From Desulfovibrio sp. UCD-KL4C (GTDB lineage: Bacteria > Desulfobacterota > Desulfovibrionia > Desulfovibrionales > Desulfovibrionaceae): DNA of 64,000 bases. Shown piece after piece: positions 12,372 to 62,033 of the stretch. Within the stretch, counting starts at the first letter, position 1, and every line of letters starts with the position of its first letter. The notes under the pieces are model-generated. The model had not been told where the DNA came from and did not search any database. It worked only from the letters and a program-made list of their open reading frames with translations. The stretch spans positions 62,001 to 126,000 of the forward strand of contig NZ_VCNC01000004.1 in assembly GCF_006210265.1 (NCBI RefSeq), written 5' to 3'. Made by a program: the position numbers and the translations under genes.

Positions 12372-12538
12372 TTGGTGTCCTTTAAAAAGATCTTTCTTTT
12401 AAGTAGACTAACAGTAGCTTTTCAATAGTTCAACACTATGATTGGCTATGCAATAAATTCGTATTGAACTATTTTTTTATAAAAATATAATGTAAAGTTT
12501 TGCGTATGATGATTAATGACGTAGATACGGAGAGTCTT

Positions 12539-15500: not shown

Positions 15501-16276
15501 TGGGCAAGAAAGTAGATAGTCCTGATGCACCGAATATTCCTATCGGGCTAGGCCTCGCTTTGCTCAGAGACAGCAGCGGGAACATTCGTCTTGATATTCC
15601 AGTTGAAGGTAACGTGGATGATCCTCAGTTTAGGCTGGGCAGAGTCATCGGGAGTGCTATTCTCAATATTTTGGTAAAAGCGGTCACTTCACCCTTTGCG
15701 CTGATCGGCGCAATGATCGGCGGTGGTGAAGACATGGATGTTTTGGTGTTTGAACCGGGATTAGCTGTGCCGCAGGATTCATCTAAGTCCAAAATTGATT
15801 CGGTCGCAAAGGCTATGAAATCACGCCCTGGACTTAAGCTTGAGATCAGCGGGTTTACTTCTCCGCAGGACATTCCCGCTCTTGAGATTGCCATGTTCAA
15901 ACGAATGGTTGCAAAGCCGAAGTTTCTTGAACTTGAATCAGACGGCAAAGCCCCTGCATCAATTGATGATGTGGTTATAAGCCAAGAAGAATACCCAGAA
16001 TATCTTGAAGAGGCATACAGTGAAGCTCCATTTGAAAAGCCTAAAAACTTCTTAGGAATGGTTGAGAGTAGGCCAGTGCCGGAGATGGAGCAGGCCATTC
16101 GTGATTACATAAAGGTGACAGATACAGATTTGGCAGAACTGGCAAGGCAGAGAGCTGAGAAAATCCGTATTATTTTAACTTCTGATAAGGGCGTAGAGCC
16201 CGAGCGGGTTTTCCTTAAAAGAGCAGCAACAGGCAAGGGGGCTGGCCCGAGGGTTGAACTTGGGTTACAGGATTAA
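12539..16276 (+). CDS. Giant DUF748 / AsmA-like envelope protein
   Basis: About 1245 residues. A single N-terminal membrane segment (STVFIVYTLIGFLLVPAIL) is followed by a long, repetitive beta-rich body of the AsmA/DUF748 type (PVEIKDVGFNPLTLDLHLEGF near the start; ITVTDLxxPDY-like turns later). A C-terminal part after residue 1080 resembles an OmpA-like region without a clear peptidoglycan motif (LKLEISGFTSPQ, LARQRAEKIRIILTSDKGV). AsmA-like proteins are thought to bridge the periplasm and carry phospholipid or assist outer-membrane assembly. Upstream TTG and ATG codons (12500-12511) are open, but the ATG at 12539 has GGAG seven bases before it and places the membrane helix normally. A small lipoprotein gene follows by 28 bases. 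Confidence 0.75.
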   Translation: MLKELYIKWKNLDRKIRWGSILSTVFIVYTLIGFLLVPAILKSVIRSKLPELLSRPVEIKDVGFNPLTLDLHLEGFRIGKKSGEGNLFAFTTFDVNFDSFSLFRFSAIFDDLKICDPQIDVTVFPEGSSVSDLLSGSEGEDKAEKKSTGFFPFIVRDLSISNGTCKVYDDYRHFQHAISDLNLAVPFTSSLSRDSDEFVQPSLSMVINGTPFVLKGKTLPFKNTLYTEFNFTLEKADLGEYWVYLPIYNTTILKSGTLSADLNLTFDRNEDALSTVKLGGKFFVRDFDLVRKSKLPILKFKQLDIDIAEFGLLRRIFKINAVNLTDPFLKIALKPDGSPDILDIIPKSVSASQNATVETTLKGEDEKGPDFLAEIGSVSVTGGRVDFTDNSFGNGFTKIIGPISVTAENLSTEKGKAGTYSVNVGTEGDEIVKVDGSLGLIPLAVKGVASVTNLNVPDYQKYMEDSVPLAVTSGKISLGTNFNIVPDNNGLIRLEGTRLNVKDLALSPKSGGDPLISLGGFAASNGTIDVGEKSVVIDSVDFHKALIKLMRDRKGIDLIKLMEKHQQELDAKKASVVVGNGTAVSSKEVQPATEESSDKSDAGVWKVAINSVNLTDSSFDLVDKAATKKTTTDISELHGSIKGISFPENNPLSLTLEGVINKRGNLKVSGQGVLSPVKVTGDLFVRKLRLRDFNGYLPPEMQMNIARGHLDVSGQWTFDAEDKALATYKGKVQVKDLLLRDRKGDRQFFHLNEIAVRDIDFASDPLKVNVRLINVLSPEIFVDKEADGTFNISRIITGKLAVPVDEKVLEKQAEAAVSKVSVGGAGEPLAVDSINAASVANSTSAETSSSTSSDNFIFLNKIAMTNGTVLFKDHTVSPAFELDIAKMTSAVRGLELPNGKRTELSFNATLDQQAPLVAEGYLQPTEDGADTDLKVTLINLDMTQLSPYTRKYIAYPVSTGMLSADVGISLNGKVLSTNNVFDIYQFDVGKKVDSPDAPNIPIGLGLALLRDSSGNIRLDIPVEGNVDDPQFRLGRVIGSAILNILVKAVTSPFALIGAMIGGGEDMDVLVFEPGLAVPQDSSKSKIDSVAKAMKSRPGLKLEISGFTSPQDIPALEIAMFKRMVAKPKFLELESDGKAPASIDDVVISQEEYPEYLEEAYSEAPFEKPKNFLGMVESRPVPEMEQAIRDYIKVTDTDLAELARQRAEKIRIILTSDKGVEPERVFLKRAATGKGAGPRVELGLQD

Positions 16277-37105: not shown

Positions 37106-38080
37106 CTAATATTCAATAATAGCTCCAGACCAACTGAGTCCAATTCCGAAGCCGAATAGTAATATTTTGTCACCGCGTTTAAGCTCACCGCGATCTTCAG
37201 CTCTTTTCATCGCGATGGGGATAGAAGATGAAGTTATGTTTCCTACTTCTTCAAGGTCGATAACCAATTTTTCTTCCGGTATGGAAAGTTTTTTACCAAT
37301 CTCTACAAGCACTTTTCGGCTGGCTTGGTGGAAGATGAAAAGGTCAATGTCATCAAGTGAAATATTTGCAGTCTTTGCAAGCTTAGTTATTTCAGGAGGA
37401 ATTGTTTTGATTGTAAATTGGAGAACTTTGTAACCATCCATCTGGAAGTCAGGGCTTGGAATTGGTGCTTCAGGATCTTTACCTGTTGTAACACTAACTC
37501 CTGTATTTTCGCATATAATAGATTTGTAGCGACTGCCATCAGTTCCAAACTGGAAGACAGGTGGAATAGTTGGCTTATCGATGATGGTTGCGCATGCCCC
37601 ATCTGAAAAGAGTAGGAAAGCTTTATTCGTATCGGGGTCGATAATTTTTGAGTAATTATCAACTGTAACAAGAAGTACTCTTTGAGAAATATTGGCAGCC
37701 AGATAAGCGTAAGCTGTTGAAAGTCCGTAACAGAATCCGCTGCAACCTAAGCTGATATCAAAACACTTGGTGGATGAAGGAAGTCCAAGTTCGTGCTGTA
37801 AGCATGCCGAAACATGCGGGAGAAGATTATCAGGAGTTTGAGTACAGACTATAAGAGTGTCCGGAAACTCTGATTTTGAAATATTTTTAAGGACTTTTTC
37901 AGCGGCGTTGTGAGCCATTTGAAGAGTTGTTTCATCTTTCTCTGCATGATGTAGAAAACGAACGCCTGTTTTGGGTAGAGAATTGCGGACATGCCATTCC
38001 GGTTTGCGTTTATCTAGCTCTAAACAATCAACTGTTTCATCAGGGATATAGTATTCTATTGTATTAATAATAGGCTTCAT
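37106..38080 (-). CDS. KAS-III-like 3-oxoacyl-ACP synthase, stand-alone paralogue
   Basis: 324 residues. Thiolase-fold condensing enzyme. The catalytic triad is visible: Cys in SLGCSGFCYGLS, His in FIFHQASRKVL and Asn in EEVGNITSSSIP. The C-terminal GFGIGLSWSGAI is typical of FabH. Such enzymes join an acyl-CoA to malonyl-ACP. It is a close paralogue of the protein encoded at 60833, sharing long identical runs by eye. The ORF can be extended upstream to 38224, but the extra 48 residues are unlike any KAS, and the ATG at 38080 fits the paralogue start. No ACP or reductase lies beside it, so it probably works with partners from the other cluster or serves a separate acyl pathway. Confidence 0.82.
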   Translation of the reverse strand: MKPIINTIEYYIPDETVDCLELDKRKPEWHVRNSLPKTGVRFLHHAEKDETTLQMAHNAAEKVLKNISKSEFPDTLIVCTQTPDNLLPHVSACLQHELGLPSSTKCFDISLGCSGFCYGLSTAYAYLAANISQRVLLVTVDNYSKIIDPDTNKAFLLFSDGACATIIDKPTIPPVFQFGTDGSRYKSIICENTGVSVTTGKDPEAPIPSPDFQMDGYKVLQFTIKTIPPEITKLAKTANISLDDIDLFIFHQASRKVLVEIGKKLSIPEEKLVIDLEEVGNITSSSIPIAMKRAEDRGELKRGDKILLFGFGIGLSWSGAIIEY

Positions 38081-38296
38081 AGATTTTTCCGTAGTTAATT
38101 TAGTGTATATGCCACTAACTATGTGGGAGCACGATTGTTTATAGTATGTGCTGCGTATTTTTATAAAGGAGAGGAATCGAACGATACATTCAGATGTGTA
38201 TTTAATCCCCGACACTGCAAACACGGCTCTAATAACGATTATTCAGGCTTGGCGCAAGGTAATAAAAGTAGACATTTAATATTGCTTTATAAAATA

Positions 38297-40792: not shown

Positions 40793-41184
40793 TTTGGATG
40801 GCAGAATTGTTGATAAATAACAGGTTTTTGCGTTTTTGCTGCATTGGCGGACTGGGGTTTGTAGTTGATTCTGGGATTACATATGGCCTTGTTGGCTTAG
40901 GTTTTCCGTCTCTTGCTGCAAGAATTCCTGCAATATTAATTGCTTTGACTGTATGTTATAAGTTTCACCACGGATTTACTTTCCGCAAAGAAGGTAAAGC
41001 TCCTTGGCGCGGGTGGTATAAGTTTTTAGTGTCTAACAGTATTGGCAGCAGTGTTAACTACGGGTGCTACGCTGTAGTTCTGCTTGTGTGGCCTGTCGCG
41101 CCGCTTATTCTACCACTGGCTGTAGGGTCTGGAGTAGCTTTGATTGTAAATTACACTTTATCCACACGCTATGTTTTTCGGTGA
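40789..41184 (+). CDS. GtrA-family membrane protein (sugar-lipid flippase)
   Basis: 131 residues with four membrane segments: FLRFCCIGGLGFVVDSGITYG, SLAARIPAILIALTVCYKFH, VSNSIGSSVNYGCYAVVLLV and ILPLAVGSGVALIVNYTLS. The pattern RFCCIGGLGFVVDSG and NYTLSTRYVF is the GtrA signature. GtrA proteins are proposed to flip undecaprenyl-phosphate-sugar across the inner membrane. The ATG overlaps the stop of the GT2 remnant. The flippase is complete although its usual partner GT2 is deleted, so it may depend on another GT2 or be on the way to loss. Confidence 0.85.
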   Translation: MIWMAELLINNRFLRFCCIGGLGFVVDSGITYGLVGLGFPSLAARIPAILIALTVCYKFHHGFTFRKEGKAPWRGWYKFLVSNSIGSSVNYGCYAVVLLVWPVAPLILPLAVGSGVALIVNYTLSTRYVFR

Positions 41185-41321
41185 TTTTATATAAATGTAG
41201 ATTTATTTTTGGAACAAAAAGGCGTCTGGACTTTATTTAAACGGTGTGCTTATTTCGGCACATTCAAAAAAGTAAGTTGATTTTTGAATTATTATAATTT
41301 TGAAAGTGAGTTCTTTAAATA

Positions 41322-42356
41322 GTGAATGATATAACTGCAATTAATCCGAAGAGAATTCTGGTCTGTCAATTACGGCAAATCGGGGATGTCGTTTTATCTA
41401 CGGCATCCATATCTTTGTTGCATAAAAAATTTCCGTTGGCTGAGATTCATATCTACACCGAAGAAAAATGCGTTCCTGTTTTTGATAATAATCCTGCAGT
41501 TAAGCATGTTTGGTCCATTAATAAGAATGATCTGCGTAATCCATTTAAAGCATTAGCTTTTTATCGTAAAGTAGGAAAGGCTGGTTATGACCTTGTTGTA
41601 GACTTTCAGCAGCTTCCCAGGTGTCGGTGGATGCTTTTATTTTGTGATGCACCTGTGCGGCTTTCATTTAATCCTCCGTGGTACAATCGGTTTTTATATA
41701 CGAACTGGCCTGAGTCTATCCCAGGTGGTTACGCAGCAAAATATAAGGCTGGGGTTCTAAAACCTTTAGGGATAGAATGGGAAGATGCTAAACCCCAGAT
41801 TTTTATCAGCGAGAAGGAACGGAAGGACGCTGGATTATGTCTTGCTTCACTTGGTGTAAAGGACGATGAGATTTTAATTACTTTAGATCCTTCTCACAGA
41901 AGATATACCAGAAGATGGCCGGCAGAACATTATGGCAAACTAATCTCGTTGTTGGCTGAACGGATTAAAAATATTAAATTTTTTATTATTTATGGCCCCG
42001 GAGAGAAGGACATAGCGGTAAAAGTTAAATCAATATCTGGTCTTGCGAGCAGATGTGTAATGCTTGAAAAAGCAGGGTCATTGCGACTTATGGCCGCTCT
42101 TATTAAGCGAGCTGTTTTACATATAGGGAACTGCTCTGCGCCGAGGCATTTTGCCGTTGGAGTCGGGACACCGAGTATAACAATTCCAGGTTCTTCTAGT
42201 AGTGCGTGGACTTTTCCTTCTCCTGATCACATAGAAGTGGTGCCTGAGCTTGAATGCCAGCCATGTAGCTGTGAAAGTTGTTCCAGAGGTGATCTGGCAT
42301 GTCTTAACGATTTATCTCCTGAAGATGTGCTCGTGAAGGTTTTAGATAAACTTTGA
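41322..42356 (+). CDS. Family-9 glycosyltransferase (heptosyltransferase-like)
   Basis: 344 residues, GT-B fold. N-terminal NPKRILVCQLRQIGDVVLSTASI and the C-terminal nucleotide-sugar site region HIGNCSAPRHFAVGVGTPSITIPGSS match GT9/heptosyltransferase proteins. Usually the sugar is heptose or a similar residue added to LPS core. An unusual cysteine cluster (ECQPCSCESCSRGDLACL) lies near the C-terminus and resembles the cysteine-rich end of some GT9 members. The start is GTG at 41322 with only a weak ribosome site. It lies 137 bases after the GtrA gene and is followed after 22 bases by the CPBP protease. Confidence 0.8.
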   Translation: MNDITAINPKRILVCQLRQIGDVVLSTASISLLHKKFPLAEIHIYTEEKCVPVFDNNPAVKHVWSINKNDLRNPFKALAFYRKVGKAGYDLVVDFQQLPRCRWMLLFCDAPVRLSFNPPWYNRFLYTNWPESIPGGYAAKYKAGVLKPLGIEWEDAKPQIFISEKERKDAGLCLASLGVKDDEILITLDPSHRRYTRRWPAEHYGKLISLLAERIKNIKFFIIYGPGEKDIAVKVKSISGLASRCVMLEKAGSLRLMAALIKRAVLHIGNCSAPRHFAVGVGTPSITIPGSSSSAWTFPSPDHIEVVPELECQPCSCESCSRGDLACLNDLSPEDVLVKVLDKL

Positions 42357-42378
42357 GTTTTTTTGTTAAGCAAAAATA

Positions 42379-42858
42379 ATGTTGGAGATTAAAAATAGGT
42401 CATTTATGGTTTATGAATTTTTCGTAAACAGAATTATTAAAGGGAGTTGGAATCAGCTGAAATGGGGAGCATGTAGTTTTACTGACCCTATTTTTTATCT
42501 GTTTTTATCTTTTGGCTTTGTCGGGCTCTACGTACCAAGTCCTGATTTAAAGCTTTCGCTTGCATTGCTGTTTGCTAAGGCTTTCATAGAAGAATTGTTT
42601 TTCAGATTTCTTCTTCAAGAGGGTCTTGATCGTTTTTTACGTTATAAGTACAGGGTTGGCCCTCTTAGTCTTGCTAATGTTCTCGCTTCACTTATTTTTT
42701 CAAGTATGCATTTAGTTAGCCAACCTTTAAACTGGGCTGCACTCACTTTTATTCCTTCACTTGCTTTTGGATTTATATGGCAACGCTACCGTAGCGTTGT
42801 TCCGGGAACAATCATTCATTTTGCTTATAATGCCTTTTTGTTCTATCAGTTCATGTAA
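42379..42858 (+). CDS. CPBP-family glutamic intramembrane protease (myxosortase/MrtJ-like candidate)
   Basis: 159 residues and four or five membrane helices. All three CPBP catalytic motifs are present: EELFFR in KAFIEELFFRFLLQEGL, FSSMH (F-x-x-x-H) in ASLIFSSMHLVSQP, and HFAYN (H-x-x-x-N) near the C-terminus. Small CPBP proteins are the proposed processing enzymes for the MYXO-, JDVT- and Synergist-CTERM sorting tails. The 747-residue protein at 48843 ends with such a tail, and secretin, GspE and oligosaccharyltransferase genes lie between. This makes a sorting-protease role likely, though that is inference; other CPBP proteins cleave prenylated or unrelated substrates. It lies 22 bases after the GT9 gene. 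Confidence 0.72.
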   Translation: MLEIKNRSFMVYEFFVNRIIKGSWNQLKWGACSFTDPIFYLFLSFGFVGLYVPSPDLKLSLALLFAKAFIEELFFRFLLQEGLDRFLRYKYRVGPLSLANVLASLIFSSMHLVSQPLNWAALTFIPSLAFGFIWQRYRSVVPGTIIHFAYNAFLFYQFM

Positions 42859-42882
42859 ATTAAAATGTGAAGACAGCTTCGC

Positions 42883-42911
42883 TTGACGGATTTTTGCAAG
42901 TATAGGATGAT
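42883..42911 (+). promoter_or_regulatory. Possible sigma-70 promoter for gspD
   Basis: TTGACG, a 17-base spacer and GATGAT (4 of 6 to consensus) lie about 120 bases before the gspD start. Confidence 0.35.
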
Positions 42912-43029
42912 TCTTTCTATATATATTGAAGAGGTAGATGTTTTAATAAATTGTTTTGAGTTTTTGAATTTATACCAAGATTTTATTTTTGAAAAATTAT
43001 TCTTTCCAAATTGAACTTCGGTGGAGACT

Positions 43030-45033
43030 GTGAAACTGAATATGTTTAAATTATTATATAAAGTAGTGATTGCACTGGCTATAGCCATTACGCTCATGTC
43101 ATCAGGGGCTTTTGCCCAACCTGAAGGCGGTGATTCTGTTCATGCTAACTTGGAAAGTATCTCTCTAGCAGAATTTGTAAAATTTGTCGGACGATATACT
43201 GGACGAAATATTGTCTTTAATAAAGCAATCTTACCAGGGAGTCATATAAGTATCTACGCAGGGCAGTCTTTGACTGAACCTGAACTTATGGCTGTTTTTC
43301 AGCAAGTTCTTTCAGGCGCAGGGTTTTATGCTGTTACACGTGACAACGTAACTTATATACTGCCCTCAAGAGATGCCAAGATGATTTCTCCAACTATTAA
43401 ATCTAATTCCTTAGGTGGGTCGGGGGAAGAGATTGTTACTTCTGTTTTTCAGCTCGCAGGGAAGATGGCTCCGGATAAGGTGACAGATCTTTTGAAGCCC
43501 TTTGCCTCACAGATTGGACAAGTTACTGCAGTTCCAATGGCTGATGCCGTGCTTGTCCGGGATTTGCAGTCAAATGTTGATAAAATGCGTAAATTGCTTG
43601 GAATTGTTCGTAAAATTGGAGCCGGGCAGGATACAGCGATTATTGACTTACAAAAAACAAGTGCAAAGTCTGTCGCCGCTAAGCTTGAGTCGTTTTATAA
43701 GAAACTGTCAACTGTGGGTAAAGTTGGTAACGTTCCTGTCATTGAATCAGTCGAGTGGGCAAACAGTCTTCTTGTTTCAGGAAGCGCAGATCAGTTGACC
43801 ACTATACGCACTCTTGTTTCGAAGCTTGATAAGGCAACTGACTCATATTCTAAGCTTAAAGTTTATCGGTTGCATAATATTGAGGCTGTTGTTGCCGGAG
43901 ATGTTTTAAAAAGCCTGGTCACCGGTGGTGGTATCCCTAGCTCAAAAAGCTCTGCTGAGGGTGGTGCTGGAGCTAAGGCTTCCGATAAAAATGATTCATT
44001 AGGCTCTGATAATAATGATGGCATGCAGGTTTCAGCAGATGAGACGACTAATACCTTAATTGTTATGGCCGATGCCACTCAAATTCCTCAGATAGATAAA
44101 TTTGTTGAGCAGCTCGATCAGCCTCAAGATCAGGTTTACATAGAAGCACTTGTTATGGAAACTACACTTAGCAATGCCAAAGAGTTCGGGGTTGAATGGG
44201 AGGGAGCTGTAAAAATGGGCGACAGTGTTTCTACTATAGGAAACACTAAGACATCTGGTAGTAATTTAGCAAGCTATGCTGCTAATCCAAGTGCTATGCC
44301 TGGTGGATTTTCCATGGGGGTTTTGGGGGATATGATTTCGTATGGAGGCAAGAGCTATCCTTCAATTGCTGCTTTAGTTAATTTTACTAAATCTTCCTCA
44401 GACTTTAATCTTATTTCAGCTCCTCAGATTATGGCAATTGATAATTCTGAAGCAGAGATCTTTGTAGGTGAAAACAGGCCGTATAAAACAGGTGAAAGTT
44501 CTACTTCAGGGGATTCTGTTGTTGCCACGTACTCATATAAAGACGTTGGTATAAAACTTAATATTAAGCCGCATATTAATCGTGAAGATGGAATGGTAAA
44601 GCTTGAACTGTACCAGACATATAACCAGATGAGTACGTCTGGGACACTGGAGCTTCCCGTCACAACTGACCGTACTACAAAAACAACAGTCCTTCTAGCT
44701 GATGGCTCAACGATGGTCATTGGTGGTTTAATCCAATCCAATAAATCTAGAGGACAAAGTGGTGTTCCATATCTTTCTGATTTGCCGCTGCTGGGGTGGC
44801 TGTTTAAAACTCAGACTAACAGTGATGACAAAAGTACTTTAATGATTTTCTTATCTGCTCGTATAATCAGAACAAATGAGCAGCTTGAAGCTCTCAGTCA
44901 GGCTAAAATGAATAAGTATCGCAATCAGAGAGTCAGGATAAATAGTTTTATTGAAAAAGAATTTAATACTTATAAAAATAACGATACTTCGAAAAATAAA
45001 CCTGAAGTATCTTCAACCCAGTCTGATGGTTAA
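43030..45033 (+). CDS. gspD: Type II secretion outer-membrane secretin GspD
   Basis: About 667 residues. Signal peptide (VVIALAIAITLMSSGAFAQ). Periplasmic N-domains follow: N0 with LAEFVKFVGRYTGRNIVFNK, then N1-N3 repeats (DKVTDLLKPFASQIG; TAIIDLQKTSAKSVAAKLE; LKVYRLHNIEAVVAGDVL), with a Gly/Ser/Asp-rich loop inside N3. The secretin domain follows: QVYIEALVMETTLSNAKEFG, VGENRPYKTGES, SYKDVGIKLNIKPHIN and VIGGLIQSNKSRGQSGVPYL. Forms the ring through which T2SS cargo leaves. The start is uncertain: GTG 43021, GTG 43030 or ATG 43042; 43030 lies just after GGAG. It is followed by gspE after 12 bases. No other T2SS gene (gspF, G, L, M) is in the window. Confidence 0.9.
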   Translation: MKLNMFKLLYKVVIALAIAITLMSSGAFAQPEGGDSVHANLESISLAEFVKFVGRYTGRNIVFNKAILPGSHISIYAGQSLTEPELMAVFQQVLSGAGFYAVTRDNVTYILPSRDAKMISPTIKSNSLGGSGEEIVTSVFQLAGKMAPDKVTDLLKPFASQIGQVTAVPMADAVLVRDLQSNVDKMRKLLGIVRKIGAGQDTAIIDLQKTSAKSVAAKLESFYKKLSTVGKVGNVPVIESVEWANSLLVSGSADQLTTIRTLVSKLDKATDSYSKLKVYRLHNIEAVVAGDVLKSLVTGGGIPSSKSSAEGGAGAKASDKNDSLGSDNNDGMQVSADETTNTLIVMADATQIPQIDKFVEQLDQPQDQVYIEALVMETTLSNAKEFGVEWEGAVKMGDSVSTIGNTKTSGSNLASYAANPSAMPGGFSMGVLGDMISYGGKSYPSIAALVNFTKSSSDFNLISAPQIMAIDNSEAEIFVGENRPYKTGESSTSGDSVVATYSYKDVGIKLNIKPHINREDGMVKLELYQTYNQMSTSGTLELPVTTDRTTKTTVLLADGSTMVIGGLIQSNKSRGQSGVPYLSDLPLLGWLFKTQTNSDDKSTLMIFLSARIIRTNEQLEALSQAKMNKYRNQRVRINSFIEKEFNTYKNNDTSKNKPEVSSTQSDG

Positions 45034-45045
45034 TAGGTTATTAAA

Positions 45046-46530
45046 TTGAAAAGTTCATATGACCTTAGTACGGTTCCTCGTGACGTAGTGGATCTTTTTT
45101 TAACATTTCCACAACGAAGTGAGTTTATTCCTGTAGAAGTCAGCGACCGCGAGATTAAGGTGTTGCTTCAGAATGAAAGTTCGTTACCGATGGCCGATTT
45201 TCTTGCTTGGAAGCTGGGGAAAAAAGTTACAACAAAAATTGTTGAAGAAGATCAATTTTTCCCATTGCTCGAGCAGGCATTGACTGTTTGGGAAGAAGAA
45301 AGTTCCATAGAGTCTGAATCTGAGGAAGGTGGAGCAGGCGAAGACGGCGAAGATCTTTTGGGCTGGTCTCATGATGATGCTCCAATTGTTCGTCTTGTGA
45401 ATAAGACTATGCATCAGGCCATAACTTCTGGAGCAAGTGATATTCATTTTGAAGGTCAGGGCAACAATTTTGTTGTTCGCTATCGGCAGGATGGAGTACT
45501 TAAAGCCGTTAAACGTCTAGATAGAGGGCTGCAAGCGACAATTATTGCGCGTATTAAAGTTATGGGTGAGATGGATGTTGCGGAGAGTCGTAAGCCGCAG
45601 GACGGAAGAATTTTTATTAAACTCGGACAGAAAGAAGTTGATGTCCGTGTCTCTACAATTCCTACAATGAGCGGAGAAAAGGCTGTTCTGCGTATCCTAG
45701 ACCGCTCAAAAAATATACTTAACCTCGAAGATTTAGGTCTCAAAGGTAAAGATCTTGAGCTATTCCGAAAAGTTCTTGCTCAGCCGCATGGGATTGTTCT
45801 TGTCACAGGGCCTACAGGGTCCGGTAAAACTACAAGTCTTTATGCAGGACTCAGTGAATTGCCTCGCGAAGATAAAAATATCGTTACTGTTGAAGATCCT
45901 GTTGAATATCAACTTTCCGGGATTAATCAGGTTCAGGTAAATAAAGCCGCGGGCATGACTTTTGCCACCACAATTCGTTCATTCCTTAGACAGGATCCTG
46001 ATATTATTCTGGTTGGTGAAATTCGAGATCAGGAAACAGCCAGTACTGCAGTGCAGGCTGCGCTTACGGGTCATCTTGTTCTTTCCACATTGCATACCAA
46101 TGACGCCGCAACAGCTGTGACCAGAATGCTTGATATGGGGATTGAACCATTTTTGCTTGCGTCGTCTCTTTCATTAGTTCTCGGACAAAGGCTGGTTAGA
46201 GTTAACTGTCCTCATTGCTCTGAAACAGTTTCGGTTTCTGAACATACTATTAAGCTTTTTGACGATATGGAAGATTTACCTACGGTTCAAACGGCCGGCA
46301 CTGGCTGCGAGCATTGTAATTTTACAGGGTTCAGTGGTCGAAAAGGTGTTTACGAATTAATTCCAGTGACTGAAGACATGCGTGGCCTTATTATGGATGT
46401 CGTGTCTGCTGACCGCATTAAAGCTTACGCTAAAGAACAGGGCCGCGAAACTATGGTCGATCATGGAATCCGCCTTGTTCGTCAGGGGATAACTACTCTT
46501 GAAGAAGTTGTCAGGGTTACAAAGCTGTAA
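45046..46530 (+). CDS. gspE: Type II secretion ATPase GspE
   Basis: 494 residues, the usual length. Powers pseudopilus assembly from the cytoplasmic face. N-terminal part (about 1-110) is variable and acidic. The ATPase has Walker A GPTGSGKTTSLYAGL, the Asp box VTVEDPVEYQ, Walker B DIILVGEIRDQETA, the His box HLVLSTLHTNDAA, and a four-cysteine zinc element (CPHCSETV with CEHCNFTG). The start is TTG at 45046 with a weak AGG. It is translationally close to gspD (12 bases). The stop is 62 bases before the oligosaccharyltransferase start. Confidence 0.92.
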   Translation: MKSSYDLSTVPRDVVDLFLTFPQRSEFIPVEVSDREIKVLLQNESSLPMADFLAWKLGKKVTTKIVEEDQFFPLLEQALTVWEEESSIESESEEGGAGEDGEDLLGWSHDDAPIVRLVNKTMHQAITSGASDIHFEGQGNNFVVRYRQDGVLKAVKRLDRGLQATIIARIKVMGEMDVAESRKPQDGRIFIKLGQKEVDVRVSTIPTMSGEKAVLRILDRSKNILNLEDLGLKGKDLELFRKVLAQPHGIVLVTGPTGSGKTTSLYAGLSELPREDKNIVTVEDPVEYQLSGINQVQVNKAAGMTFATTIRSFLRQDPDIILVGEIRDQETASTAVQAALTGHLVLSTLHTNDAATAVTRMLDMGIEPFLLASSLSLVLGQRLVRVNCPHCSETVSVSEHTIKLFDDMEDLPTVQTAGTGCEHCNFTGFSGRKGVYELIPVTEDMRGLIMDVVSADRIKAYAKEQGRETMVDHGIRLVRQGITTLEEVVRVTKL

Positions 46531-46592
46531 TTGCATCATATTAACACATCTTATTTTTACCAAGATATTAGCATCATAGAGTGGAGCTCAAC

Positions 46593-48704
46593 ATGAGGCA
46601 GGAATTTCAAAAACCGGCTTGGATGAATGATTGGAAAGTTTTTTTAATTTTTTCATTGATATCATTTGCATTCGCATTTGGACTTAGGTGTTTGGATTTG
46701 CAGAAATGGAGTAACCCTTCATTTATTGTTCATGGTGAATACATAATGGGAACACATGACGCCTATTATTGGCTTGCCGGAGCAAAAGGGGTTGGAAGCG
46801 CCGTAGGCAATCCTATGTCGGAACTGGTACGTTTTCTAGGTAGCTTAACTGGCGTTCAATACGGTAATATTGCATTTTGGCTTCCGGCTGTATTTGCAGG
46901 TTTTTGTGCAATCGCCGCCTTTGCTTGGGGTATGCTTGTTCGCGGTCCTTGGGTTGGGCTGGTAAGTGCAGTGTATGCGACATCCATTCCTGCATACTAC
47001 TTTCGAACTAGACTTTCATATTACGATACAGATGTTGTGACTCTTTTTTTACCTCTTTTAATCTCTGTCCTTCTTGCAAGATGGGTTTGCCAAGGGATTA
47101 GAACATCATGGCTTCCTCAAAAAGGAGCAGAAATAAAATTTAATCCTACACTGATTGATTATTGTCTTCCTATTTTCGCTGGGGCCATAGCTGCATATGG
47201 TAAATTATGGCATAGTGATGTTTTAACCTTTGCTATTCTTGTCGCGCTTATTGCACTTGGCCTTTCTGTTGTCTGCGGAACTAAAAATAATCGTCCTGAA
47301 CTTCTGCGTGGCTTGGTCCTGTTCTTTTTGGTTGCCTTTGTCGGTTGGATTGGTTTTGTTCTTGCGATTTTGTTCCTGATTGCAATGTCGTTTTCAGCTG
47401 TCAGAGATCATAAATTTTATAATAGTATTTATTTATACTTGTTAATACTGCTGGCTATTTTTGCCTTAAGTGGATTGGGGCAAGATTTGCTAGTTGTCAT
47501 TTCTATGAAAATTGGCTCCTATATTAAGCCCGTTGCTGATACTTCAACAGGGATCTCAGGGCCACAATATCCAGGTATAGCTCAAAGTGTCATTGAGGCT
47601 CAAAATATAAGTTTTGATGCTTTGTTTTCGAATTTGACGGGAAGTATTTTTTTGGGATGGTTAGGATTTTTATCATTCGTTTTTGTAGTCTTAGTTAATC
47701 CAACGAGTCTCTTTTTGGCCCCGTTTGCCGCAATAACCTTTGCTGCTGTTTATATGGGCGGGCGTTTTGCTATGTTCGGCGGTATTGCGTTGGGGCTCGG
47801 GCTAAGTTTTACATTAGCTTGTTTTATTGAGCGTTATGCTAATTTTACGACAAATAAATTAGTGTTAGGTGTTGTCCAGTCTTTAGTCATAGTCGGTCTT
47901 CTTTTTTCAAATATATTTACAATATACGAAGGGGCTCCTGCAACTCCTATAATGGGGAAAAGTCACGCAAAAGCTTTGATTGAAGCCGGCAAGAAAATGT
48001 CTGATGATAGTACTGTGTGGACGTGGTGGGATTGGGGTTATGCTACTATGTACTACACTGGGGTTAATTCATTCGCGAATGGCGGAAATCATGCTGGTCG
48101 TATTTTATACCCACTTAGTTTGGCCTTCACTACTCCTTCATATTTACAGTCTAGCCAGCTTATTAAATTTAGTGCTGCTAACGGTAACAATCCTGCTGCT
48201 GTCTGGAGTAAGATTTCAGCAAAAAAAGTGCATAAAATGATTCAATATTTGGGACAAAGTAAAGTTAACTTTCCGAAAACAGCTAAGCAGTATTTGGTGG
48301 TAAGTTGGGAAAATATTAGACTTGCATACTGGATACTTTACTATGGCGGTTGGGATGTCATAAGTGGAAGTAGTATACATCCTACGGTTCTTTCTGTCAC
48401 TAAACCTTTTGACTTGAATTTTGAGTCTGGGGAATTTGCAATTAGAGGAGAATCTCAAATATCCTTATCTTCTTATGATTTTTTAAGAAGAAAGCAGAGA
48501 AATTTTAAAGTATTCCCCAATTCAGTAGGCCCGCATCTTTTGTATAATGAGCCGAGTACGCAAGCCTTCCTTGTTGATGACTTTGTAAACTCAAGTATGC
48601 TCGTAAGATTATTGATTGAAGATCCTTCTACACCTGAATTGGCTAGCCATTTTAAACTTGTTTATGAGGGTTTTCCATTAGTTAGAATTTATGAAGTTAT
48701 TTAG
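46593..48704 (+). CDS. pglB: Oligosaccharyltransferase, STT3/PglB family
   Basis: 703 residues. About 13 membrane helices up to residue 430 and a C-terminal soluble domain. Three STT3 signatures are visible: the first-loop Asp in MGTHDAYYWLAGAKG, the second-loop D-x-D in SYYDTDVVTLFLPLL, and the sequon-binding WWDWG in DSTVWTWWDWGYATMYY (PglB and STT3 have WWDYG). Transfers a lipid-linked glycan to asparagine in N-X-S/T sequons outside the inner membrane. PglB is known from Desulfovibrio, with a GlcNAc-type glycan. GTG at 46581 is open, but the ATG at 46593 has GGAG six bases before it. The next gene encodes a secreted protein with 19 sequons. Confidence 0.85.
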   Translation: MRQEFQKPAWMNDWKVFLIFSLISFAFAFGLRCLDLQKWSNPSFIVHGEYIMGTHDAYYWLAGAKGVGSAVGNPMSELVRFLGSLTGVQYGNIAFWLPAVFAGFCAIAAFAWGMLVRGPWVGLVSAVYATSIPAYYFRTRLSYYDTDVVTLFLPLLISVLLARWVCQGIRTSWLPQKGAEIKFNPTLIDYCLPIFAGAIAAYGKLWHSDVLTFAILVALIALGLSVVCGTKNNRPELLRGLVLFFLVAFVGWIGFVLAILFLIAMSFSAVRDHKFYNSIYLYLLILLAIFALSGLGQDLLVVISMKIGSYIKPVADTSTGISGPQYPGIAQSVIEAQNISFDALFSNLTGSIFLGWLGFLSFVFVVLVNPTSLFLAPFAAITFAAVYMGGRFAMFGGIALGLGLSFTLACFIERYANFTTNKLVLGVVQSLVIVGLLFSNIFTIYEGAPATPIMGKSHAKALIEAGKKMSDDSTVWTWWDWGYATMYYTGVNSFANGGNHAGRILYPLSLAFTTPSYLQSSQLIKFSAANGNNPAAVWSKISAKKVHKMIQYLGQSKVNFPKTAKQYLVVSWENIRLAYWILYYGGWDVISGSSIHPTVLSVTKPFDLNFESGEFAIRGESQISLSSYDFLRRKQRNFKVFPNSVGPHLLYNEPSTQAFLVDDFVNSSMLVRLLIEDPSTPELASHFKLVYEGFPLVRIYEVI

Positions 48705-48725
48705 TTCAGGAATCTAATAAATGAG

Positions 48726-48754
48726 TTGAATTATAGATTGTTTAAGGTTATAGT
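48726..48754 (+). promoter_or_regulatory. Probable sigma-70 promoter of the surface-protein gene
   Basis: TTGAAT, a 17-base spacer and TATAGT (5 of 6 to consensus) lie about 90 bases before the ATG. A separate promoter would allow much higher expression than the upstream oligosaccharyltransferase. Confidence 0.45.
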
Positions 48755-48842
48755 GTCATCGTATTTTAGATTAAAATCTTGAAAACATTGGGTTTTTGGG
48801 GTTTTTATTTTGTTAACTTAAACTTAAGGAGATCTTTTCATT

Positions 48843-51086
48843 ATGAAAAAGATTACAGTTCTCTTTACAGTATTGCTGATGCTGGCAGCTTCCAGTGCAT
48901 TTGCAATTGATGCTGTATTCCCAACTGCTTTGAACGGAACCGCTGCGATTGACAGCAAGCAGACTACCTCTGTCACTCAGGTATACAAAGCTGAAACTGC
49001 TAAAACTAACCGGGTATTTATCGGTTTTACAGTAAACGCTTCAAGGTCTGCGTTTAATGGTAAAACTGGAGAAAACGCAACCTTTATTCCTTTTAATGCT
49101 TCACATGTAAACATTTTGAGTGCTACAGATGTTTCATCCGCTGCTCAACACGATGGTAACTCCACTCTAAGTGCTAATTTTGGTTTTTTTAACTCCACTT
49201 CAGCCATTCTCCCAGCTGTAATTGCACAGAATAACGGTACTGATGGCGGTGGTGCTGGACAGAATGCGACTTTTATTCGTGCTAATTCAGTAACATTTGG
49301 TGTTCCTGGTACCGCTACAAGTGCTGTTCTTACAAAACTTCCAGGTCTTGTAACTATAGGCCAGTTTAACTCTACAGCAGCTGTTGCTGCAGGTCATGGT
49401 GCTCCTACTGGCATGAATCCTTTCTTGGGAATTCATACAGGTTCTTATGACCTAGTTGCTGCTCTTTCAAACTCAACAATTACTACTCTTAGTGAGAACG
49501 CGGCTGGTGATAGTGCTAGAAATAACGCTGATAACTTAGGTACATCTTTCATGATGTCCTACGTAAATGGTACTGTTGTTGACGCTGTCTACGATTCTGC
49601 CCGTTGGGATTACTATGCAGTCGGTTATGATTATGATTTGCACAAATCAATTTATATCATAGGTCAGGTCTACCTTGATACTGCTCCAACTACTACTGCA
49701 ATTCAACAAGCTTCAAATGCCAGAGCTAAGTTTGTTGTTTACAATGATGACAGAACAGTAACTAAAGGAAATGATTTTACTGCTAAAACTTACGCTTACA
49801 ATGCTACAACAGTTCAAGCAGCTGACGGAACAATCAAAATTACTCGTACCAATTCTGGTTATGACCTGATGCAGTATGGTATTATGAATAAAGATCGTAA
49901 TATGATTTCCGGTCTGACTTATAACGCAAAAGTCGGTGCTACCAATCAGCCTGTACGTTTCTTTGCTGTCATGATCAAAAATGGTCAGTACTTAAGCTCT
50001 CGTGATTTTGCAAACCGTGGTTATAAAGCCATTTATTCCGGTTTTGGTGGTGAAGGTCAGCGTTCTAACAACGCAACTCAGGGTATCATGTCTTTGTCAG
50101 CAGATGCTAATCTAAACGTAGATACGTTTATTGCTAGAAACGATGCTGATGGTGTTCTAACTGCCTCTACTGAACTTTTCGGTGAGCAGCAGCAAACAAT
50201 TACTGATGCAAGTATTACTCTTGGAAAAACTAATGTTTTCAAGGCAAATTCTCAGTCTAACATGACTCTGGTTAATACTGATGGAAAAACTCCATTAGCT
50301 AACTTCTACGGTAAATTTGCAGAAAACAAAGCTTACGCAGTTGGTATTTATCAGCCAATAATTGCTAAAGTAAAAAATGGTTTTGCTCTTTCTGTTATGA
50401 TTCCTGATTCTGCTCTTGTTAGTCCTGTAGACGTGGCTCCTAAAGATTACCAGTTCAATGGTACTATTGCATCTACTACTACTCCAGCTGGACAACAGCG
50501 CTTCGTACGTAATAGTACTGATTACTCAAACAAAGCTCTTCGTAAGGCTTGGCCTGCAATAAGCTCTGATTTTGTACCTTTAACTGGAGCAATTGGGTTC
50601 AACTCAACACTGCATCCAGCAAACGCCGATCAGATTAAGAATGGCAAATTCTATCAGACATTCCGGGTTAATTTCACTGGAGTTGCAGGACGAGTAGATA
50701 CTCTTGCTCTGTACAAATTGATGGCAAATAGTCATTCTGCTCATAGACTTACTTATGCCTCATCAGAGACCGAAGGTATGAACTATGATGGAGCATGGTG
50801 GATTTCAGACTCAGATGGTGACGGATATAAAGGTCTTACTTCTGCCCTTGTCGCTTCAAACAATTACTACTTGAACTATACTCTCAAAGATAATGGTAAT
50901 TATGACTTTGTTAGAGGCAACAGCAAAGGTCAGTTTGGTGACCCAATTGTCCTCGGTAGCATCTCCCCTAGCTCTTCTAGCTCCTCCGGTTGTGTATTCA
51001 ACCCTGCTGCTAGCTTCGGCTTAGAATGGTTGTTGCTGATGCTCGCTCCTATGGTTGCTATCGTTCGTAGCCGCTTCAAGAAATAA
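48843..51086 (+). CDS. Putative N-glycosylated surface protein with C-terminal sorting tail
   Basis: 747 residues. Signal peptide ends in SSAFA (about residue 21). The body is beta-rich and Ala/Asn/Thr-rich without a family I know. By my count it has 19 N-X-S/T sequons, 17 of them N-X-T, spread over the whole length (examples NGT at 31, NST in FFNSTSA, NFT in RVNFTGV, NYT in YLNYTLK). Only one has an acidic residue at -2. The C-terminus from 708 is a Ser run, Gly-Cys (Cys 717), a hydrophobic helix (FGLEWLLLMLAPMVAIV) and a basic end (RSRFKK), as in MYXO/JDVT/Synergist-CTERM tails. The codon choice (CGT, AAC, GGT) looks that of an abundant protein. An S-layer-like role is possible. A terminator follows. 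Confidence 0.75.
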   Translation: MKKITVLFTVLLMLAASSAFAIDAVFPTALNGTAAIDSKQTTSVTQVYKAETAKTNRVFIGFTVNASRSAFNGKTGENATFIPFNASHVNILSATDVSSAAQHDGNSTLSANFGFFNSTSAILPAVIAQNNGTDGGGAGQNATFIRANSVTFGVPGTATSAVLTKLPGLVTIGQFNSTAAVAAGHGAPTGMNPFLGIHTGSYDLVAALSNSTITTLSENAAGDSARNNADNLGTSFMMSYVNGTVVDAVYDSARWDYYAVGYDYDLHKSIYIIGQVYLDTAPTTTAIQQASNARAKFVVYNDDRTVTKGNDFTAKTYAYNATTVQAADGTIKITRTNSGYDLMQYGIMNKDRNMISGLTYNAKVGATNQPVRFFAVMIKNGQYLSSRDFANRGYKAIYSGFGGEGQRSNNATQGIMSLSADANLNVDTFIARNDADGVLTASTELFGEQQQTITDASITLGKTNVFKANSQSNMTLVNTDGKTPLANFYGKFAENKAYAVGIYQPIIAKVKNGFALSVMIPDSALVSPVDVAPKDYQFNGTIASTTTPAGQQRFVRNSTDYSNKALRKAWPAISSDFVPLTGAIGFNSTLHPANADQIKNGKFYQTFRVNFTGVAGRVDTLALYKLMANSHSAHRLTYASSETEGMNYDGAWWISDSDGDGYKGLTSALVASNNYYLNYTLKDNGNYDFVRGNSKGQFGDPIVLGSISPSSSSSSGCVFNPAASFGLEWLLLMLAPMVAIVRSRFKK

Positions 51087-51139
51087 TTTGAAGTAAGCTT
51101 GAACAGTTAGCAGGTCCATTGGATCTACAGCTTATATTA

Positions 51140-51173
51140 GGGAACCGTCTGAAAAGTCGGTTCCCTTTTTTTG
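51140..51173 (+). terminator. Terminator after the surface-protein gene
   Basis: GGGAACCG / CGGTTCCC around a ten-base loop followed by TTTTTTTG. Confidence 0.85.
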
Positions 51174-51270
51174 TTAGTTGTAAAATAATGAGAAAAAGTA
51201 TGGCCTACGGATCAGCAATCCTTAAGAATTTTGCATAAGATGAAATATGTCATTTAGAATTAATGGAATA

Positions 51271-51304
51271 AAAAAGCACAGCTTAAATTTAAGCTGTGCT
51301 TTTT
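51271..51304. terminator. Perfect palindromic bidirectional terminator
   Basis: AAAAAGCACAGCTTAAA and its reverse complement TTTAAGCTGTGCTTTTT adjoin, forming a 17-base perfect palindrome arm. It ends the glycan cluster on the minus strand, 28 bases after the epimerase stop. Confidence 0.8.
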
Positions 51305-51332
51305 CATGTGTAGGATATAATGCGGAAGTTAA

Positions 51333-52295
51333 CTATTTAGTAATAGCTTTAATATACCAATCAATACTTTTCTTTAGACCTTCAGAAAATGGAGTCAGCC
51401 TGAACTCTATCATTTTTTCAAGCTTTTCATTACTAGCATTATGGCAGAAAACATCTGAATTTCTGGAAGTTTTTTTAAGGATTTCACCTTTGTAATTCAT
51501 TTCGTGGGCTATTGTCTCAATTACTTCTTTAATGCTCACCTGATTGTGAGTTGAAATATTTACAGACTCGCCTTTTGGGAGCTTATCAAAGACATTAACA
51601 ATTGCATCGACAGTGTCATGTACATAGATAAAATCGCGGCTCTGAGAGCCTGTTCCGTGAATCTCAAGTGGTAGATCGTTTAGCACTCGAAAAACAGTTA
51701 TAGGGATAACCCCGGCCAATTCTCCCTTGTAATTTTGGCGCGGACCGTAATTATTAAAAGGGCGAATGATGAATGAGTCGAGATCATACATTCTAACGTA
51801 GGTTTCAACAGCTAAATCAGCAGCAGCTTTTCCTGCAGCATACAAAGTTGTGGGATTACGTGGATGCGCTTCATCCATTGGCTCATAGATTGCAGTACCG
51901 TAAACTTCAGATGTGGAGAAATGACAAAGAGTTGTAAATGCATTTTTACGTTGAAGTTCAAGCAAATTTAGAACTACTTTGGTATTTGTCTCAAACGAAT
52001 TTGATGGATTCATGAATGAATAATTGAGAGCCTTTGTAGCACAGTTGAAAACTATATCTATGTCATGGCGTTCAAAAATATATTCAAGTGAAGTCGCAAA
52101 TTCTGCATCATCTTTATAAAGAATTGATCCATGCGAAATTGCTTCTTCTAAATTATTTTCATTTCCAAGAAAGAGGTTGTCAATTATAACAACCTCTTTA
52201 GCTTTCATATCAAGTAAGCGGTCAACAAGGTGGCTGCCTATAAAGCCAGCTCCGCCAGTAACCAAAATAGTGCTCCCTTTAATTTGAGGACGCAT
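51333..52295 (-). CDS. NAD-dependent sugar epimerase/dehydratase (extended SDR)
   Basis: 320 residues. Rossmann motif TGGAGFIGSH, Ser in CHFSTSEVYG, catalytic Y-x-x-x-K in LYAAGKAAAD and the sugar-contact RPFNNYGPRQN. This is the UDP-glucose 4-epimerase / dTDP-glucose dehydratase class; whether it epimerises or dehydrates cannot be told. The TSEVYG motif occurs in both types. Last gene of the minus-strand glycan cluster, six bases after the Gfo/Idh gene and followed by a terminator. Confidence 0.82.
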   Translation of the reverse strand: MRPQIKGSTILVTGGAGFIGSHLVDRLLDMKAKEVVIIDNLFLGNENNLEEAISHGSILYKDDAEFATSLEYIFERHDIDIVFNCATKALNYSFMNPSNSFETNTKVVLNLLELQRKNAFTTLCHFSTSEVYGTAIYEPMDEAHPRNPTTLYAAGKAAADLAVETYVRMYDLDSFIIRPFNNYGPRQNYKGELAGVIPITVFRVLNDLPLEIHGTGSQSRDFIYVHDTVDAIVNVFDKLPKGESVNISTHNQVSIKEVIETIAHEMNYKGEILKKTSRNSDVFCHNASNEKLEKMIEFRLTPFSEGLKKSIDWYIKAITK

Positions 52296-60832: not shown

Positions 60833-61801
60833 TTAATAGTTAAAAATTACTCCGCTCCAGCTAAGCCCTATGCCAAAACCGAAGGTTAATATTTTACTTC
60901 CTCTTTTAAGCTTACCTGCTTCTTCTGTTCTTTTAAGAGCAATAGGAATTGATGAAGAGGTTGTGTTGCCAACTTCTTCAAGATCAATAATAAGTTTTTC
61001 ATCCGGTATATTTAATTTTTTACCTATGGACTCTAGAACATATCTGCTTGCCTGGTGAAAAATAAAAAGATCAATATCATCTAATGTTAAATTAGCCTTT
61101 TCAACTAATTTCAAAATTTCTGTCGGTATTGTACCTAAAGTAAAAAGAAATACACCGTATCCATCCATTTCAAAGTTAGGCTTTTGAATTGTATCCTGCG
61201 AGGCTTTTCCGGTAACGACTGAGATTCCAGAATTTTCACATATAACAGCTTTATTTCGACCGCCGTCAGTTCCAAAATGAAAAATAGGATCATTATCAGG
61301 ATTTTCGAGTACTGTGGCGCTGGCCCCGTCTGAAAAGAGAAGGAAAGCTTTTTTATTTTCAGAGCTAATAATTTTTGAATAATTATCAACTGTTACCAGT
61401 AATACTCGTTTTGAAATTCCAGCTTTAAGATAACAGTATCCTGTTGCCAGCCCATACCCGTAACCGCTACAGCCTAAGCTAAGGTCGAAGCATTTTGTCG
61501 AACGATCTAGTCCAAGCTTATCTTGAAGCATTGCGGAACAATGTGGCAATAAATAGTCTGGTGTCTGTGTACAGACAATCAGGGTATCAGGCTTTTTCTC
61601 AAGTCCTTCGAGAGCTTTAGATGCAGCTTTATAAGCCATATCGAGAGTTGTTTCTTCAGCCGCGGCATGATGAAGGAATCTTACCCCTGTTTTAGGAAGG
61701 GTGTCAGAAATATTCCAATCCGGTTTTTCTGTATCGAGCTGAACGCAGTCGATAGTCTTTTCCGGTAGGTAATATTCAACTCTATGGATAAAATTAGGCA
61801 T
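60833..61801 (-). CDS. KAS-III-like 3-oxoacyl-ACP synthase of the glycan cluster
   Basis: About 322 residues. Catalytic triad: Cys in SLGCSGYGYGLA, His in FIFHQASRYVL and Asn in EEVGNTTSSSIP. It has long identical runs with the protein encoded at 37106, so the two are recent paralogues. A cognate ACP gene overlaps its start (ATG at 61801 lies eight bases before the ACP stop), and a ketoreductase lies upstream. KAS-III, ACP and ketoreductase together can make a short 3-hydroxyacyl-ACP, which an acyltransferase could put on an amino sugar. Acyl length is not visible. Confidence 0.85.
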   Translation of the reverse strand: MPNFIHRVEYYLPEKTIDCVQLDTEKPDWNISDTLPKTGVRFLHHAAAEETTLDMAYKAASKALEGLEKKPDTLIVCTQTPDYLLPHCSAMLQDKLGLDRSTKCFDLSLGCSGYGYGLATGYCYLKAGISKRVLLVTVDNYSKIISSENKKAFLLFSDGASATVLENPDNDPIFHFGTDGGRNKAVICENSGISVVTGKASQDTIQKPNFEMDGYGVFLFTLGTIPTEILKLVEKANLTLDDIDLFIFHQASRYVLESIGKKLNIPDEKLIIDLEEVGNTTSSSIPIALKRTEEAGKLKRGSKILTFGFGIGLSWSGVIFNY

Positions 61802-62033
61802 CAATTAATCCGTTAGCATCAAGGGTTGTGATAATTTCTTGTACTGAAAGGGCAATAGCGAGTTCAGGAATATTAGCAGCTTTACCACCTGTTGCCTGAT
61901 CAATACGCATTAAAATCTGTAGCTGTGCAAGACTGTCCCATGCGTCTAGTGTTTGTGAAGAGTCAGCGATTGTGATGTCTTTTTTATGATTTAGAATTTC
62001 TTTAATGATTTCTAATAGCTCTGATTTTTTCAA
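61794..62033 (-). CDS. Acyl carrier protein of the glycan cluster
   Basis: 79 residues. The phosphopantetheine attachment serine is in LDAWDSLAQLQILM (motif W-D-S-L), with helices before and after as expected (LLEIIKEILN and PELAIALSVQEIITTLD). Housekeeping ACPs have G-x-D-S-L; the W-D-S-L form is usual for dedicated carriers in polysaccharide and secondary pathways. It must be modified by a phosphopantetheinyl transferase encoded elsewhere. Overlaps the KAS-III gene by eight bases, so they are translated together. Confidence 0.85.
   Translation of the reverse strand: MKKSELLEIIKEILNHKKDITIADSSQTLDAWDSLAQLQILMRIDQATGGKAANIPELAIALSVQEIITTLDANGLIDA

Follow-up and report, generated by a model that had tools for sequence, protein, structure and literature searches.

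The stretch of DNA analyzed here (the window) comprises 64,000 nucleotides of Desulfovibrio sp. UCD-KL4C (contig NZ_VCNC01000004.1, positions 62,001 to 126,000). It contains an 8.7-kb block in which a CPBP intramembrane protease, the secretin GspD and ATPase GspE of a type II secretion system (T2SS), an STT3/PglB-type oligosaccharyltransferase and a large exported protein (the target) follow each other. The original prediction placed these five open reading frames (ORFs) in this order on one strand, and all are present as described (Table 1). The identities given to them hold for the protease, GspD and STT3/PglB, and for GspE in part (the specific model falls under its cut-off, the broader PF00437 matches). 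A recount of the target confirmed its 19 N-X-S/T sites (sequons), of which 17 are N-X-T, as well as the claimed Gly-Cys/hydrophobic/basic end (G716-C717, a hydrophobic stretch and RSRFKK). The target has no convincing family (a single NCBIfam match at E 0.15, none in Pfam), and an AlphaFold2 model built on two sequences is too poor for use (mean pLDDT 29.8). Overall, we consider it fairly probable that the block encodes a T2SS-based surface-display pathway for an N-glycosylated, tail-sorted target.

Table 1. Features of the block and its 5' neighbour (window positions).
Feature	Position	Strand	Evidence
GT9 heptosyltransferase-like gene, 5' of protease	41322..42356	+	PF01075, 64 bits
MrtJ-type CPBP glutamic intramembrane protease, 159 aa	42379..42858	+	NF033192, 83.7 bits; PF02517
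GspD, T2SS secretin	43021..45033	+	TIGR02517, 424.5 bits (cut-off 351)
GspE, T2SS ATPase	45046..46530	+	TIGR02533, 573.4 bits (below cut-off 630); PF00437, 465 bits
STT3/PglB-type oligosaccharyltransferase, 707 aa	46581..48704	+	PF21436 and PF02516, both over cut-off
Target: exported 747-aa protein, 19 sequons, C-terminal sorting tail	48843..51086	+	
Target, probable signal peptide (residues 1-21, ending ASSAFA)	48843..48905	+	Sequence reading; crude predictor
Target, C-terminal domain (about residues 618-705), probably choice-of-anchor U-like	50694..50957	+	Common to other tail proteins
Target, sorting tail GCVFNPAASFGLEW, hydrophobic helix, RSRFKK	50988..51083	+	Alignment and genome search

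For comparison 78 genomes were searched, the own genome (G000) included, of which 17 belong to its genus, a group of sulfate reducers that may be Maridesulfovibrio and, if so, would be mainly marine. The conservation of gene order on which the original prediction depended was found in this genus: the order GT9-MrtJ-GspD-GspE-STT3-target is unbroken in 15 of the 17 genomes, the own one among them (in one of the 15 an additional ORF separates GT9 and MrtJ). The GT9 gene lies 5' of MrtJ in 16 of the 17, again counting the one with the extra ORF, and GspD adjoins MrtJ in 16 as well. The tail is nearly letter-identical among targets that average only 39% identity, and taken together the kept order and the near-identical tail are, as judged from sequence comparison, more than chance. 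In G010 the first four genes stay together, and STT3 is found about 314 kb away (G010:C1:1634000-1650000, L082), directly 5' of a 1226-residue protein that has the same tail, belongs to another family and shows no sequon excess. In the closest relative, the target gene is interrupted near the start by an in-frame stop (G014:C5:116755-117030, L066); this copy may be inactive, or mis-assembled.

In other genera, T2SS genes are found no more than about 6 kb from an MrtJ-like gene in G038, G039, G042 and G072, and STT3 is located immediately 3' of GspF in G038 and G039. In the stretches read from six g34 genomes (G049, G054, G058, G062, G066, G074), G059 and G031 there is no T2SS gene beside the protease. 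The five-part unit, as defined by these comparisons, holds for the own genus and in part for two other genera.

The protease exceeds the cut-off of the MrtJ model NF033192 (75 bits) and is the sole PF02517 match at E 0.001 in the 3.93-Mb own genome. Residues E71, E72, R76, H111, H147 and N151 are invariant across 17 aligned proteases (own included); the EExxxR motif and the two histidines we take to be the CPBP catalytic residues. The original prediction invoked MYXO-CTERM sorting by a myxosortase, a label that we rejected: the protease reaches 24.4 of 180 bits for MrtX and 43.6 of 195 for MrtC, the target has no MYXO-CTERM match, and protease and tail fall on the MrtJ/JDVT-CTERM side instead. 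Matches to the MrtJ family at E 1e-10 occur in 34 of 395 phylum-sampled genomes, and three of them, including the own one, are over the cut-off.

The tail follows the pattern GCxxNPxAxF[GS]x[ED]W, succeeded by a helix and a basic end (consensus of 18 tails: SSSSSSGCVFNPAAGFGLEWLLLMLAPxxAxxRSRFKK). With 12.3 bits it stays under the JDVT-CTERM cut-off of 27 (NF033191), the best scores being 19.6 in the own genome and 24.3 among ten scanned relatives. The tail shares with JDVT-CTERM the Gly-Cys motif, the hydrophobic helix, the basic end and the presence of an MrtJ-type protease in the genome, and on this sequence evidence it is related to the JDVT-CTERM type but scores too low for its model. At E 0.01 our tail model matches in 27 of the 78 genomes, with 1-10 matches per genus genome and three in the own one, which contradicts the earlier view of a single target; tail proteins of the own genome other than the target lie at C1:529643 and C4:446125. 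Tail and protease (called at E 1e-5) occur together in 27 genomes; two have the protease only, none the tail only and 49 neither. Counted by genus, the figures are 7/1/0/35 in the same order; Fisher p values for such co-occurrence tables ignore kinship within genera. Of the expected co-occurrence of protease, STT3 and tail, the pairing of protease and tail is thus seen, and the coupling of STT3 across genera is not.

The carriers of the tail are diverse. Seven of ten other tail proteins contain propeller-, FG-GAP-, NHL- or LVIVD-type repeats over the Pfam cut-off, some of them along with Ig-like or PKD domains, and four of the ten exceed the cut-off for choice-of-anchor U (NF041766), one with its best match internally. 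The target itself has no NF041766 match, and aligns at 41% identity over 131 aa (including the tail) to a 1217-aa tail protein that scores 32.9 bits against the cut-off of 32. Among 77 loci of wider MrtJ relatives, a crude rule picks out 21 with a Gly-Cys tail protein, and several such tails in Campylobacterota have a GGGCTYNP..FD form; STT3 matches at two of the 77 loci, apparently contigs of G009 and G039 that were already counted. Searching the 395 phylum-sampled genomes for the tail at E 1e-6 returned the own genome only, a strict limit that would miss weaker variants.

Type II secretion accompanies the protease. GspG is matched at E 1e-10 in all 29 protease-positive genomes and in 15 of the 49 protease-negative ones; over the curated cut-off these counts are 28 of 29 (G042 has a partial match at a contig end) and 11 of 49. 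The own genome has a single GspF-type protein, located 52 kb 3' of the module and accompanied by GspC-, GspG- and GspK-like genes and more pseudopilin-like ORFs (GspF and GspG over cut-off, the GspC and GspK models below theirs). Secretin, ATPase, platform protein and pseudopilins of a T2SS are consequently all found across the module and this distant cluster. The GspG-K run is headed by a gene for a 458-residue lipoprotein-like, weakly beta-propeller-like protein (L100:14887-16263), and a similar ORF occupies the same position in G001.

The STT3 protein can be aligned to a structurally characterized bacterial PglB (PDB 5ogl, E 5e-21) and contains the motifs THDAYYW, YYDTD, SVIE and WWDWG. Across 20 aligned STT3 sequences WWDWG and SxxE are present in all and YYDTD in 19. 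These presumably correspond to the WWDYG, DxD and SxxE motifs of the family. Domain families and catalytic motifs are those of PglB, and the PglB equivalog model NF050801 gives 79.5 bits against a cut-off of 1300; by its sequence, the enzyme is one that would work like PglB and is not to be filed as a PglB equivalog. Immediately beyond GspF in the own genome, KdsD-, AsnB-, GT4-, PglC-, PglD-, PglE- and PglF-like genes (named after Pfam and NCBIfam families) lie on the same strand, the PglC-like one at C4:151783-152382. Bac_transf, PglD_N and TIGR03570 are over cut-off there, together with aminotransferase and dehydratase families; as matches to the PseB, LegC and WcaJ models stay under the respective cut-offs, these genes do not fix which sugar is made. 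A full PglC/D/E/F-like row adjoins GspF in 11 of 16 genus genomes (G000, 1, 3, 5, 6, 7, 10, 11, 12, 13, 14), G002 being left out of this count. The exceptions are G008 (no PglD match), G004 and G015 (rearranged or cut by the stretch), G009 (contig end) and G016 (no Pgl match within its 16-kb stretch). Past the window end, between the module and the remaining T2SS, lies a further glycan-synthesis stretch, the enzymes of which by eye resemble a pseudaminic-acid pathway (G000:C4:126001-146000, L105).

To judge the sequons, expected counts were derived from composition-preserving shuffles, with the reverse motif as control. The 99 places matched by the tail at E 0.01 correspond to 82 distinct proteins of at least 17 bits, of which two were too short and 80 were counted; for some of these the start choice is crude or the tail is not at the called end, and none was dropped. 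The 16 tail proteins that neighbour STT3 in the genus contain 335 sequons against 167 expected, and 147 reverse motifs. All 15 members of the target family in the genus exceed expectation (z 2.3 to 5.9), and the unrelated G010 neighbour does not; this 1226-aa protein is included in the 335/167 figure and was moved to the other tail proteins for the N-X-T split. For the 17 family members (15 of the genus plus G038 and G039) the excess concerns N-X-T (287 against 97 expected) rather than N-X-S (88 against 77).

The idea that all tail proteins are N-glycoproteins does not hold up within the genus, whose 42 other tail proteins contain 290 sequons where 313 are expected. Split by type, 43 others show 184 N-X-T (155 expected) and 119 N-X-S (169 expected). 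An individual exception is L257 of G012 with 18 sequons against 8.7. The 22 tail proteins of other genera reach 163 against 103; the target homologues of G038 and G039 account for 53 of these, and another tail protein of G039, L229, has 15 against 5.1. In the own genome, 57 exported-like proteins (target included) hold 155 sequons against 152 expected and 210 soluble ones 380 against 387.

Conservation within the 17 family members points in the same direction as the counts. Asparagines in sequons are kept in 63% of pairwise comparisons, against 30% for other asparagines and 41% for those of the reverse motif, and a kept asparagine retains its sequon in 93% of cases (43% for the reverse motif). 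Ala, Gly or Ser predominate in the middle position of the sequons. At position -2, acidic residues occur less often than in the background (4% against 6.7%), which fits the relaxed Desulfovibrio PglBs described in PMC4894442 (partial text). That the target family is N-glycosylated is thereby supported by strong but indirect evidence.

The pathway that we favour would then proceed as follows. After export through Sec the target would remain anchored in the inner membrane via its C-terminal helix, and in the periplasm the neighbouring PglB-type enzyme would move a lipid-linked glycan onto many N-X-T sites; this glycan may begin with a bacillosamine-type sugar, for which the PglC/D/E/F-like genes adjoining GspF would supply the enzymes. 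A general acyltransferase probably attaches a lipid to the invariant cysteine in the GCxxNP motif, after which MrtJ would cleave beside this residue and remove the helix. The folded glycoprotein would pass the outer membrane via the GspD secretin and stay held by its lipid. MrtJ and the T2SS would serve several tail proteins, the transferase mainly the adjoining target. All chemical steps and their order are inferred; the lipidation, cleavage and T2SS steps are carried over to the window tail by homology from the MYXO-CTERM model. From the predicted route of export, glycosylation, T2SS passage and tail processing, comparison of genomes bears out the protease-tail pairing, the co-occurrence and linkage with the T2SS and the conserved N-X-T excess; the single target and a general coupling to STT3 do not stand.

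Several observations weigh against this pathway. STT3 as a general part of the protease system was rejected on its by-genus co-occurrence (7/1/26/9, p 0.66). The protease-bearing genomes G049 and G059 lack an STT3 match, and G031 has a weak one only. The protease is also present with no tail match in G049 and G072. In G002 MrtJ and STT3 stand side by side at a locus that has lost GspD, GspE and the target; G010 and G002 both keep STT3, yet neither yielded a full-length target, and the tail protein next to STT3 in G010 has 13 sequons against 12.6 expected. Without the two target homologues, the tail proteins of other genera still show 72 N-X-T against 38 expected (N-X-S 38 against 43), meaning that the excess reaches beyond the target family; some of these proteins may be N-modified too. 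The window further encodes, at 12500-16276, a 1258-residue exported-like protein (by eye AsmA-like) with 15 sequons against 7.2, whose z of 3.2 resembles the 3.1 of the target, so that the case rests on the target family, the members of which are related. The PglC/D/E/F-like genes could serve lipopolysaccharide or other glycans. Finally, no lipidating enzyme was identified; the four neighbours of MrtJ checked in G074 are of the Usp, glutamine cyclotransferase, phosphoesterase and SelB families, and none is a candidate.

Given the wide distribution of STT3 (61 of the 78 relatives, 34 of them among the 49 without protease), it might be argued that neighbouring but independent systems are at work: a general N-glycosylation system, the PglB gene of which landed in a T2SS operon, next to tail sorting, with the target glycosylated and its secretion uncoupled from this. 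The restriction of a clear sequon excess to the target family among tail proteins of the genus, and the retention of STT3 without the target in G010 and G002, agree with such independence. It is less easily reconciled with STT3 genes inside the T2SS operons of three genera, in differing arrangements, with the PglC/D/E/F-like genes next to GspF in 11 of the 16 genus genomes examined, and with sequon-rich tailed targets in all three genera. We regard this alternative as rather unlikely, though one to be taken seriously.

The tail could also be an ordinary C-terminal inner-membrane anchor facing the periplasm, with the CPBP protease having another job. A hydrophobic helix and a basic end are typical of any anchor, but the residues G, C, N, P, F and W before the helix are invariant in the 18 aligned tails, the tail closely co-occurs with the protease, this protease belongs to the MrtJ family, and Gly-Cys tails are encoded close to MrtJ relatives in other phyla; we therefore think this explanation very improbable. 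That sequons are in excess simply because the structure is rich in Asn, Ser and Thr (N 8.8% in the target, S 9.7% and T 10.5% in the family) is hardly to be expected, since shuffles of the same composition yield half as many sequons and the reverse motif is rarer still, the excess is limited to N-X-T, sequon asparagines are kept twice as often, and 40 of 86 sequon columns occur in a single member, so that sites turn over at a constant number.

Archaeosortases form a protease family that is not known to be related to the CPBP type. The closest analogue of the whole logic would be the archaeosortase A/AglB system, in which the Haloferax S-layer glycoprotein is a substrate of the sorting protease, N-glycosylated by AglB and located at the surface (PMC8241124, partial text); that system is archaeal and has no type II secretion. 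It is conceivable, though we put this forward only tentatively, that the module does in bacteria what S-layer glycoprotein assembly does in archaea, with N-glycosylation built into a T2SS operon, passage of a folded, densely N-glycosylated protein through a secretin, lipid anchoring by a dedicated tail protease and glycosylation as a secretion or quality-control step.

Among bacterial systems, MrtJ/JDVT-CTERM is described in the available part of PMC11980579 as a two-gene neighbourhood in which the protease has one target only, and which occurs sporadically among beta- and gammaproteobacteria. Shared with it are a protease over the MrtJ cut-off, Gly-Cys/helix/basic substrates and a target gene near the protease; here, however, the tail is below the cut-off, there are 1-10 targets per genus genome, the protease sits beside GspD, and STT3 and an N-X-T-rich target lie alongside. 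For MYXO-CTERM the same source proposes cysteine lipidation, CPBP cleavage and T2SS transport, with cleavage reported in Myxococcus. The CPBP protease, invariant cysteine, presumed lipidation, T2SS-dependent display and many substrates of MYXO-CTERM/MrtX are alike, whereas the protease subfamily differs and the target lacks a MYXO-CTERM match; the word stem glycosyl is absent from the main text of PMC11980579. Desulfovibrio PglBs, tested in E. coli, accept a minimal N-X-T without an acidic -2 residue and resemble the present enzyme in being single-subunit transferases with this preference, and the part consulted of that work mentions no link to T2SS or tail sorting (PMC4894442). In Vibrio, GlyGly-CTERM and rhombosortase go with the T2SS (PMC13393428) and O-glycosylation by PglL is reported to affect it (PMC6901666). 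A C-terminal tag on T2SS surface proteins and an influence of glycosylation on the T2SS are thus shared, but the protease there is a rhomboid and the transferase O-linked, and an operon sharing its substrate is unmentioned in the partial texts of both papers.

Each of the parts is known; the added step is that one cargo is N-glycosylated by a transferase from the same block, and the union of the parts and the tail variant look new. Among the matches listed from the open-licence PMC literature there was no bacterial N-glycoprotein that is also tail-sorted T2SS cargo, and none, judging by titles and abstract starts in the open-licence literature, that combines an oligosaccharyltransferase, type II secretion and C-terminal sorting; MYXO-CTERM was found nowhere mentioned together with Desulfovibrio in the open-licence PMC literature, and JDVT-CTERM is named there in one paper. 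If the pathway is real, a folded protein with heavy N-glycosylation can pass a secretin, PglBs of the relaxed Desulfovibrio type gain a natural substrate family to test, MrtJ sorting is widened from one target to many, and bacteria offer a parallel to the archaeal sorting of N-glycosylated surface proteins. The module would join making, glycosylating, secreting and trimming, steps that are mostly studied apart, and the tail model allows surface proteins of these bacteria to be listed from sequence.

Some minor observations concern the block and its surroundings. Scans of 41000-51600 for promoters and terminators gave 31 and 9 sites, where shuffles gave 25.1 and 8.8, and so do not fix the limits of the transcript. 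The codon bias of the target is moderately strong only (rank 20 of 271 genes) and is not used as an argument. The module is flanked by two similar genes on the minus strand, at 37106-38224 and 60833-61804 of the window, that by eye are ketoacyl-ACP-synthase-III-like.

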